64,000 nucleotides of DNA from Eubacterium coprostanoligenes (GTDB lineage: Bacteria > Bacillota > Clostridia > Oscillospirales > Acutalibacteraceae), in NCBI RefSeq assembly GCF_900167205.1, contig NZ_FUWW01000008.1, positions 1 through 64,000 of the forward strand. Reading direction: 5' to 3'. Below, in pieces: positions 30,588 through 58,753 of this stretch (positions are counted from its first letter, which is position 1; every line of letters starts with the position of its first letter). The notes under the pieces were generated by a model. It did no database searches and had not been told where the DNA came from. It saw nothing but the letters and a program-made list of their open reading frames with translations. A program made the position numbers and the translations under genes.

Positions 30588-30721
30588 GAGATTATCAAGA
30601 GTGGTTGAGGGACTGGCCCTGCGACACCACAGCAACCTGCGTTTGTAAGGTGCTAATACCTGCGGTAAGATAATACCGAATGATGAATTATCAGCATACG
30701 GTCACCGCTGTATGCTTTTTA
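30588..30721 (+). promoter_or_regulatory. SAM-I (S-box) riboswitch with terminator, controlling metK
   Basis: The conserved core is present in order: ttatcaagagtggttgaggg, actggccctgcgacacc, agcaacctgc, aaggtgctaatacctgc, then gataat closing helix P1 (30591-30596 with 30669-30674). After it lies a terminator hairpin (agcatacggt / gctgtatgct, 30693-30716) with a T-run. Known mechanism: SAM binding stabilises the aptamer and allows the terminator, turning metK off when SAM is plentiful. Confidence 0.97.
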
Positions 30722-44283: not shown

Positions 44284-44286
44284 ATC

Positions 44287-44512
44287 AGACTGTCGATAAA
44301 GCTTCTGAAACACGCCAAATACATTTAACCGACTTGCCTCCACTTGAAGCAAGGGGAGGTGGCAACACGAAGTGTTGACGGTGGGGTTTTAAAAATGCTG
44401 TAAGTATCGAACTTACAGCATTTTTGGCGTTTTTCGTTTTTTGCTCAGTCGAGGTATTTGTATACATCTTCCTTCGCAAGAAAACGAAATTCAGAAACTT
44501 TCTCAACAGCCT
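44287..44512. repeat. Structured interspersed repeat element, copy 1
   Basis: A 226-bp non-coding element. The outer arms pair imperfectly: 44287-44309 with the complement of 44490-44512 (core ctgt-ga-aaag-ttctgaa). Inside, ACGCC (44312-44316) pairs with GGCGT (44426-44430) and encloses three hairpins: cctccacttg / caaggggagg (44337-44358), caacac-gaa-gtgttg (44363-44377), and a 15-bp perfect stem aaaaatgctgtaagt / acttacagcattttt (44391-44425). The right part holds ttttcg...cgaaa with an inner gaggtat / atacatc stem. A second copy lies at 58527-58753. No reading frame is conserved between copies. Confidence 0.85.
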
Positions 44513-44515
44513 ACA

Positions 44516-44543
44516 GCGTGTCGAAAATACTTTTTCGACACGC
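44516..44543. other. Perfect 12-bp hairpin after repeat copy 1
   Basis: gcgtgtcgaaaa / ttttcgacacgc with a four-base loop and no T-run on either side. It may block read-through from spoIIIA or be a remnant of the repeat; it lies just before the asp23 promoter. Confidence 0.6.
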
Positions 44544-44554
44544 CGAAATATATC

Positions 44555-44583
44555 TTGTATAATTATTTCTTTTGTGTTATAAT
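44555..44583 (+). promoter_or_regulatory. Sigma-A promoter of the asp23-nusB-recN cluster
   Basis: TTGTAT (44555-44560), a 17-nt spacer, and TATAAT (44578-44583), 24 bp before the asp23 start. Confidence 0.8.
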
Positions 44584-57692: not shown

Positions 57693-58529
57693 ATGAGAGA
57701 ATTTAGAAAAAAGCAAAAACGATTAAAAAAAATAATGAACTCAGTTGTTATTGTAACAGCCATTTACCTTTTTGTTTATATCGGTGTTGAGCCTGTTATG
57801 GCAAAATCGCTCGGTGCAACGATGACTATGATAGCTGCATATTTGAGTGATATTCTTGTTGTTGCGAGTATGGCTGTTTTGTTCCTGTATTTTTCAAAAT
57901 ACGGTAAGAGCGATAAATTCCTTGAATCTGTTGAAAATGAATTGTCCGACACAGGATATTATTTCACCGCAAGACAGGAAAAAGATATAGACAGCTATTA
58001 CAACGCTGTTGTTGAGAACTTGCGACTCAATTCTTTTTCGGTTGACGAAAAAGTTGTTGTTGATGATTTTGAGTTCACCGCCCGTGCAACAAAGGGCAAG
58101 AGTGTAATCTATATTCTCAAAGAAGATGAAGTTGACAAAAATGACTTAATTGCTTATCAAGAATCGGCAATTTATGATTTGACATCAATCAACCTAAAAC
58201 GCAAGGCTGATGTTGTTATGCTTTATATTTGCGACCGTGCCGATGACGGTGCCGTTTCGCTGTCAAAAATGATTACTCCGCTTGGCAGAAAAGAGCAAAT
58301 CAAGATTGCAAATGCCGTTGTGGAGGTTTCATCTTCACGCTGTTATTTCCTCGGAAATAAAGCAACAAAGTGCCAACAGCTGATTGCAAATTATGCTATG
58401 AATGTTGAAGTTCCTATCAAGGACGAGTTCAAGGGTAAGGAGCAATTGCCGTTTCAGGCAGAACTTGAAGAACATATGAAAGAATTTAACATAAAAGATT
58501 TTAAAGCAGGAACATTTTATGCACATTGA
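57693..58529 (+). CDS. Membrane protein of unknown function
   Basis: This 278-residue protein has two N-terminal membrane helices (SVVIVTAIYLFVYIGV and AAYLSDILVVASMAVLFLYF) after a very basic start (REFRKKQKRLKK). A soluble alpha/beta domain follows (residues ~90-270) with no recognised motif; YYNAVVENLRLNSF, DDFEFTARATKGKSVIYILKED and ADVVMLYICDR suggest strand-rich folding. It immediately follows ligA. Its TGA stop is the first three bases of repeat copy 2, so the native C-terminus may have been altered by that insertion (inferred). Confidence 0.75.
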   Translation: MREFRKKQKRLKKIMNSVVIVTAIYLFVYIGVEPVMAKSLGATMTMIAAYLSDILVVASMAVLFLYFSKYGKSDKFLESVENELSDTGYYFTARQEKDIDSYYNAVVENLRLNSFSVDEKVVVDDFEFTARATKGKSVIYILKEDEVDKNDLIAYQESAIYDLTSINLKRKADVVMLYICDRADDGAVSLSKMITPLGRKEQIKIANAVVEVSSSRCYFLGNKATKCQQLIANYAMNVEVPIKDEFKGKEQLPFQAELEEHMKEFNIKDFKAGTFYAH

Positions 58530-58753
58530 TTGCTGATAAAGCACCTTAATCGTGCCATAAATATATAGACCGATTTGAGCCTCCTTTGTGTAAAGGGAGG
58601 TGGCAACACGAAGTGTTGACGGAGGGATTGTAAATATATTTTGTACATTGAGCACAAAATATATTTGGCACTTTTCGTTTTTTACTCAGTCGAGGTACCA
58701 TCGTACATCTTCCTTCGTAAGAAAACGAAATTTAGGCACTTTCTCAACAATCA
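58527..58753. repeat. Structured interspersed repeat element, copy 2
   Basis: A 227-bp non-coding element, the partner of 44287-44512. The outer arms are tgattg-tga-aaag-cct (58527-58549) and the complementary tttaggcactttctcaacaa-tca (58731-58753). Inner helices: GTGCC (58552-58556) with GGCAC (58667-58671); cctccttt / aaagggagg (58580-58600); caacac-gaa-gtgttg; and aaatatattttgt / acaaaatatattt (58632-58666, 13 bp perfect). The last hairpin has no sequence in common with the same helix in copy 1. ttttcg...cgaaa and an inner gaggtac / gtacatc stem close the right part. Confidence 0.85.

Follow-up and report, generated by a model that had tools for sequence, protein, structure and literature searches.

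Architecture of the element

The window, by which we mean the whole 64,000-nucleotide stretch of Eubacterium coprostanoligenes DNA analysed, harbours two copies of a dispersed repeat, of which its own genome contains about 40. Copy 1 is located between two putative genes, the upstream one presumably being spoIIIAH, as named in the preliminary description, and the downstream one being read by us as asp23-like. Its body spans positions 44287-44512, the extent originally assigned to the element, whereas comparison with relatives places the whole element at 44286-44545, wider at both ends. On the forward strand, which defines the orientation used here for all features, copy 1 starts with a left terminal inverted repeat (CAGACTGTCGATAAAG, 44286-44301) differing in a single letter from the end of an IS1182-type insertion sequence (IS) at locus L117. 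The arms of the outer helix P1 (44287-44310 and 44490-44512), which pair best on the reverse strand, enclose the helix P2, formed by ACGCC (44312-44316) and GGCGT (44426-44430), a variable insert region (44333-44387) which in copy 1 consists of a CCTCC/GGAGG plus AACAC/GTGTT double hairpin, a hairpin designated H (44391-44425) and the 3' hairpin M3 (TTTTTCG...CGAAA, 44430-44489) with its conserved tip. H comprises a perfect 15-bp stem capped by the loop ATCGA, with a T-rich tract behind it, and is the sole hairpin scored as terminator-like in a region where shuffled sequences give 0.5. The right end of copy 1 sits in a further hairpin (44513-44545), in which the right terminal inverted repeat reads CTTTTTCGACACGCCG and differs by a single letter from its counterpart CTTTTTCGACACGCTG in relatives. 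The element ends just upstream of a promoter-like TTGTAT-17-TATAAT of the downstream gene (44555-44583, by direct reading), which is present at the empty site of the related genome G012, too. The body of copy 2 occupies 58527-58753 in the same orientation; a right-end hairpin was not recognised there. Elsewhere in the window, a SAM riboswitch (RF00162, 84.5 bits) is found at 30589-30689, while positions 174-971 hold direct repeats with a period of 69 nt which possibly encode a 23-residue protein repeat.

A search of the own genome, whose 35 contigs add up to 1.82 Mb, returned 78 matching pieces for positions 44287-44512 as query, and copies were laid out at 40 places, which include a lone 3' module (L036) and the pair L012/L013, probably an assembly duplicate; further ends were located besides. 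Several copies lie at contig ends, where some of them are truncated, as expected since repeats break assemblies. The lone module (G000:C24, approximately 2496-2569) is a solitary 3' hairpin directly following a native-looking terminator hairpin, the remaining element being absent. Among 165 elements altogether, 109 have a right-end hairpin which starts no more than 20 nt from the body, and 100 have the right terminal repeat, with at most three mismatches, no more than 80 nt from it.

The bodies of the own copies measure 217-233 nt, or 288-392 nt where at least one of three extra modules is inserted. Two of these three insert modules, all of which have palindromic stretches, occur as alternatives at the CCTCC/GGAGG hairpin, and the third, approximately 100 nt long, lies within the 3' hairpin (loci L006, L017, L024, L025, L027, L029, L030, L032-L035, L037, L072 and L074). 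The double hairpin observed at 44333-44387 of copy 1 (CCTCC...GGAGGTGGC, AACAC...GTGTTGAC, GGAGGG) recurs in many own copies, where it occupies the variable part. Since relatives of it are found without the element, both in genomes of other families (L061, L065, L069) and in G029 (L070), this module probably constitutes a separate repeat which lies nested within the element. The body lengths of the 165 elements are distributed over all three remainders modulo 3 (61, 59 and 45), so that a conserved reading frame through the body is unlikely. An open reading frame of 73 codons with a TTG start, which crosses nearly all of the copy 1 body on the reverse strand (44285-44506), is probably due to chance.

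Distribution and partner insertion sequence

The copy 1 query matched 29 of the 60 genomes searched, its own included. Within the genus, 26 of the 37 sampled genomes match, 25 of them beyond the variable middle, and the 5' end of the element, allowing for at most one mismatch, is present in 29 of the 37, a reversed control pattern yielding five matches in total. In G029 and in three of the 23 genomes of other genera the match is confined to query positions 50-108, i.e. to the variable insert region. The core pattern occurs in at least 113 stretches of named assemblies, the 80 listed being titled Eubacterium sp., Eubacteriales, Clostridiales, Ruminococcaceae or Clostridia bacterium.

At locus L117, a sister species carries an IS of about 1.6 kb with the ends CAGACTGTCGAAAAAG...TTTTTCTACAGTCTG, bordered by a perfect 26-bp palindromic flanking duplication. 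Its protein matches the NCBIfam IS1182 transposase model NF033551 with 411.3 bits (cut-off 270) as well as Pfam DUF772 and DDE_Tnp_1. The left end of this IS and that of the element are the two sequences noted above to be one letter apart (CAGACTGTCGAAAAAG and CAGACTGTCGATAAAG, respectively); by reading, IS and element share little beyond about 16 bp per end. By inspection, a hairpin directly precedes five more left ends of such ISs, three of this same IS in G006, one in G023 and one belonging to a relic in the own genome. At L117 and L332, terminator-like hairpins lie immediately within the two ends of the IS and may protect the transposase gene against read-through.

Among the 37 genus genomes, the IS1182 transposase family was matched in five and exceeded the cut-off in three (G028, G006 and G023), while the family search of the own genome found no intact IS1182 transposase but a 92-codon relic. 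Within this sample the partner IS is rarer than the element. ISs may be absent from fragmented assemblies, as suggested by the left ends in G006 which are located near contig ends. Four contig-end repeats of G007 (L121-L124), which start with CAGCCTGTCGAAAAAG directly after hairpins, have similar ends; as G007 gave no IS1182 match we left them out of the IS1182 evidence.

The element is short, occurs in many copies, lacks a conserved protein gene, shares its inverted repeats with an IS of the IS1182 group as its partner and shows signs of insertion. It is accordingly best filed as a MITE of that group, where the preliminary description had recognised no named family. In Rfam, no family attained the gathering score for the element within the window. 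By E-value, none was credible on copy 1 or at seven loci of relatives, whose matches at E≤1 all fell below the gathering score.

Insertion sites

For 98 of 101 parsed elements (30 own, 68 from relatives) the left flank was sufficient for analysis. A terminator-like hairpin adjoins the left end in 73 of these 98 copies, compared with 85 of 5000 random positions, the share being 15 of 30 in the own genome and 58 of 68 in relatives. Moreover, 42 of the 98 copies possess a flanking duplicate of 18-32 bp, which was seen in 4 of 1457 mismatched flank pairs; such duplicates are far fewer in the own genome (3 of 30) than in relatives (39 of 68). In relatives, the same hairpin often stands on both sides of the element, as at L045 with 31 identical bases. 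The flanking hairpin copies at L168 have the same stem, and one loop looks inverted relative to the other. No hairpin was detected in 15 of the 30 own copies, and by reading neither a target hairpin nor a flanking duplicate is seen at copies 1 and 2.

Using a crude longest-ORF rule, the orientation of the flanking genes could be scored for 71 of the 165 elements. The genes converge at 37 of these sites, both run in the direction of the element at 23 and against it at nine, and they diverge at two. As the left gene is directed towards the element in 60 of the 71 cases, the insertion sites are mostly the 3' ends of genes.

The sites of both window copies were compared with those of sister species, the absence of the element being scored by motif. 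For copy 1, the downstream gene matched in 29 of the 37 genomes, and both genes are adjacent in 27 of the 29 loci fetched. Solely the own genome contains the element (327 bp between the matches), while all 26 others are devoid of a recognisable one (58-242 bp); the joined flanks of copy 1 used in this comparison carry two element bases. For copy 2, 34 of the 37 genomes matched and 29 of 30 fetched loci were scored. Again, the element is present in the own genome (297 bp) and absent from all 28 others, whose gaps of 12-63 bp are too short to accommodate it. Both window copies are lineage-specific insertions, each missing from every comparable sister-species site. The mobility proposed in the preliminary description, which had named empty orthologous sites as a check, is supported by these 26 of 26 and 28 of 28 empty sites as well as by the existence of an IS with matching ends.

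Conservation of the fold

Folded as 241-nt stretches of the given strand, copies 1 and 2 reach z-scores of -4.74 and -3.54, respectively, with none of 200 shuffles being as stable in either case. The compensatory changes between them which had originally been taken to indicate selection on structure are indeed present in the sequence: ACGCC/GGCGT is replaced by GTGCC/GGCAC, and gaggtat/atacatc by gaggtac/gtacatc. The latter helix, however, contains a G-A mismatch in both copies, and 86 of 88 aligned copies carry a mismatch at this position. Similarly, the variable hairpin, claimed to be perfectly paired in both copies, is so in copy 1 (15 bp) but shows an A-C mismatch beside the innermost pair in copy 2.

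In the other copies, too, pairing of this hairpin, H, is maintained. Across 101 elements with 64 distinct 5' arms, 1439 of 1502 pairs are Watson-Crick pairs and 69 elements are free of any mispair, the mispaired cells being G-T in 24, A-C in 18 and other combinations in 21 cases. As H was scored as the best hairpin within a stretch, the same procedure was run on random stretches and shuffles: the share of Watson-Crick pairs amounts to 95.8% in the elements compared with 57% and 56%, and perfect stems of at least 14 bp occur in 66 of 101 elements, while random stretches yield 2 in 1996 and shuffles 0 in 1010. ATCGA is found in the loop of 51 of the 101 elements.

Covariation was assessed on 148 distinct elements against 60 tree-aware null alignments, with purpose-written scripts for null model and parser. 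While the first alignment comprised 88 of 101 parsed elements, the second comprised 150 of 165, from which the 148 distinct ones derive; elements were dropped if more than 100 nt followed the 3' hairpin anchor (in own copies, an inserted module) or if parsing failed. Thirteen column pairs pass E<0.05, namely seven of the 14 pairs of H, one of the seven of the 3' hairpin tip and five others located in the 3' hairpin, possibly owing to an exchange of allele blocks. Covariation above phylogenetic expectation is found, then, in H and one pair of the tip. No pair of P1, of P2 or of the 3' hairpin base passes, though few of these pairs vary enough; P1 was tested at its ends only because the sequence-only alignment loses the common register of the outer arms between own copies and those of relatives. 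Hence, selection on structure, as put forward in the preliminary description, is supported in part, being upheld by covariation for H and one tip pair but not for the outer arms, ACGCC/GGCGT or the 3' hairpin base; the helices beyond H and the tip pair consistently without exceeding the tree-aware null. An RNAalifold structure of the reverse strand for 32 copies from at least 14 genomes has 96.0% of its cells paired and two-sided change in 32 of 41 pairs, which none of 500 shuffles and no slid version equalled, these shuffles ignoring relatedness and the counted structure being derived from the same alignment. Taken together, conservation of the fold is real but uneven.

Strand preference

The mispairs outside H are distributed unequally between the strands. 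According to parsimony on an approximate tree, 79 events convert a Watson-Crick pair to A-C and 17 to G-T on the given strand, compared with 196:246 expected from unpaired columns. Pair by pair, 14 favour A-C and four G-T, for which the sign test is modest (p 0.03). The asymmetry is concentrated in three helix parts, the ratio of A-C to G-T amounting to 25:1 and 11:2 at the base of the 3' hairpin and to 22:3 at the outer end, while P2 (12:6), P1b (8:4) and the tip (1:1) display it weakly. The smaller set of 88 copies gives 56 A-C events and 12 G-T events (14 versus three pairs), and omission of the three most affected pairs leaves 35 versus 12. H exhibits no strand preference (17:23 events), as would be expected if it worked in transcripts of both directions. 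Since an A-C on the given strand corresponds to a G-T or G-U on the other one, the fold is probably kept on the reverse strand. We conclude that the constrained fold outside H is probably that of the reverse strand, either as RNA or as single-stranded DNA.

Computed stabilities point in the same direction to some extent. The reverse strand folds with -88.0 kcal/mol in copy 1 and -78.7 kcal/mol in copy 2 versus -75.1 and -63.1 kcal/mol for the given strand, and the consensus fold reaches -37.4 with 42 pairs versus -30.9 with 37 pairs. The remaining comparisons made use of shuffles and of N linkers, which replaced A linkers because A becomes T on the reverse strand, where it can pair. With H removed, 118 of 150 elements fold more stably on the reverse strand (mean 5.4 kcal/mol), but so do 355 of 450 shuffles (mean 3.3 kcal/mol); for the 3' hairpin alone, this applies to 93 of 150 elements versus 223 of 450 shuffles, while for the whole body the reverse strand is favoured in 94 cases against 54. 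As the shuffles without H favour the reverse strand, too, part of its extra stability is base composition.

The strand data also bear on the reading that the compensatory changes arise from DNA-level correction of imperfect palindromes, i.e. from template switching in replication, instead of selection on a folded molecule. Such correction would suit H, which is nearly perfect, with 69 of 101 elements lacking any mispair, and whose 24 G-T versus 18 A-C cells reveal no clear preference for a strand. A strand-symmetric process, however, does not predict the 79:17 asymmetry of the other helices. In addition, the loop of H retains ATCGA in 51 of 101 elements while its stem has 64 distinct 5' arms, and one helix position remains mismatched in 86 of 88 copies. 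We therefore consider palindrome correction an unlikely source of the changes.

Proposed transposition into terminator hairpins

The shared ends, the position adjacent to hairpins, the duplication of these hairpins, the empty sites and the IS1182 transposase encoded by the partner are all observed. The element is, in our judgement, very probably a MITE moved in trans by DDE transposases of the IS1182 family which inserts into palindromes, often duplicating terminator hairpins, and whose interior is constrained. Both of its ends carry the inverted repeat of the IS, roughly CAGNNTGTMGAWAAAG, and the transposase would be supplied in trans. The target would be a palindrome, in most cases an intrinsic terminator hairpin which probably adopts an extruded, cruciform shape, and strand transfer may join the 3' ends of the element to the two feet of this hairpin, one on each strand. 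Gap filling would then copy the whole hairpin so that a terminator remains on either side of the insert and the host gene escapes harm. H, in which nearly all pairs are Watson-Crick pairs and mispairs are about equal on both strands, would act as a two-way terminator, while the remaining helices seem to be under constraint as parts of a reverse-strand fold, be it of RNA or of single-stranded DNA. Landing at gene ends and leaving a terminator-like hairpin on each side would offer a simple explanation of how some mobile DNA may grow abundant while doing little harm.

A reverse-strand constraint inside a MITE of the DDE type is unexpected and directly testable. We tentatively put forward, as a possibility rather less probable than its opposite, that the MITE carries a multi-helix nucleic acid selected on the reverse strand only, in the form of a small RNA or of single-stranded DNA, which is required for its own spread or for restraining transcription at the terminators which it duplicates. 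If true, this would mean a structured RNA or single-stranded DNA component in a class of transposons thought to use double-stranded DNA alone.

The fold kept across 32 copies of at least 14 genomes, together with the conserved tip and loop letters, would also suit a body which is a functional regulatory or small RNA of the host and merely spread by transposition. Given that both window copies are lineage-specific and that no Rfam family reaches the gathering score over the element, we regard this as somewhat less likely still than palindrome correction.

It is far less probable that an HUH (Y1) transposase of the IS200/IS605 type mobilises the element as single-stranded DNA, in the manner of REP/PATE repeats. 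The element shares with such repeats its palindromic, structured and mostly intergenic nature and a fold seemingly kept on one strand, and the own genome does contain a gene for a Y1 transposase, split into three pieces which lie at the ends of contigs (L364-L366). Yet, its inverted-repeat ends are common with a DDE-type IS, its long flanking duplications are at variance with IS200/605 elements, which are not known to make target duplications, and none of 40 own element stretches matches the Y1-bearing contig ends at E≤0.01. The Y1 (IS200-type) gene pieces at L365 and L366 in G000 are preceded by terminator-like hairpins. From the original suggestion that structure is selected in RNA or in single-stranded DNA during transposition, the folded reverse strand, RNA or DNA, is retained on account of the mispair asymmetry, whereas single-stranded DNA transposition of the known IS200/605 type is not supported in view of the DDE partner, the long duplications and the Y1 surroundings which have nothing in common with the element. 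Finally, a degenerate group IIC intron-like retroelement would explain the position next to hairpins, as group IIC introns also land after terminators, but is the least credible of all since the Rfam searches gave no group II intron match and the element possesses terminal inverted repeats and long duplications, neither of which group II introns are known to have.

Comparison with known systems

The preferred reading, a MITE mobilised by IS1182-family transposases, assigns the element to a known kind. As far as the portions of the open-licence literature covered by our search extend, no report of this element was found, and its hairpin duplication, its spread in the genus and its strand-specific constraint appear undescribed there. 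The Bcr1 repeats of Bacillus cereus are mobile intergenic elements with a conserved secondary structure; the likeness of our element, which is mobile, intergenic and structured as well, refers to this general description of Bcr1.

Short structured intergenic repeats are also known from Streptococcus pneumoniae, where SPRITE, BOX and RUP, some of them terminator-like, insert into one another according to the available text of the source (PMC10969869). They resemble the element in being short, structured and intergenic but belong to other hosts, and the likeness is one of description only; the term IS1182 has zero occurrences in that paper. IS1182-derived MITEs have been reported from Methanosarcina acetivorans, where, with ISMac2 as partner, they measure 160 and 169 bp and are present in 14 and 7 copies (PMC3852290, as far as the accessible part of the paper goes). 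Like the element, these are short non-autonomous relatives of IS1182; unlike it, they are archaeal and shorter, and the same part of the paper mentions no conserved fold. The rows listing them end in 26 and 4 and in 25 and 0, respectively, the legend placing direct repeats before inverted repeats. We take 26 and 25 as inverted repeats, in which case there is no long duplication; if the order of the legend is literal, long duplications would occur there, too (PMC3852290).

Hairpins are known targets of IS1182 elements. For the staphylococcal IS1272 and TnSha1, members of the IS1182 family, the consulted sections of the sources describe the targeting of hairpins without sequence preference, five of them confirmed terminators, and IS1272 is reported to enter terminators by deleting or replacing the hairpin, without duplication (PMC4923244, PMC5678879). 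Our system likewise combines a transposase of the IS1182 family with hairpin targets, yet here the hairpin is kept and duplicated. Replacement of the hairpin in the manner of IS1272 was rejected as the general mode because of this duplication at L117 and in 42 of 98 MITE copies; copies without a hairpin could nonetheless have arisen by it. For the IS1182 family as a whole, the excerpted text of PMC12056078 states that it acts with or without duplication or deletion. In the model outlined in the consulted part of PMC5678879, the attack takes place at the 3' feet of a cruciform, and by analogy the same attack would give rise to hairpin duplication if the gaps were filled instead of trimmed. The 42 insertions with duplicated hairpins represent a natural data set on how IS1182 transposases handle hairpins.
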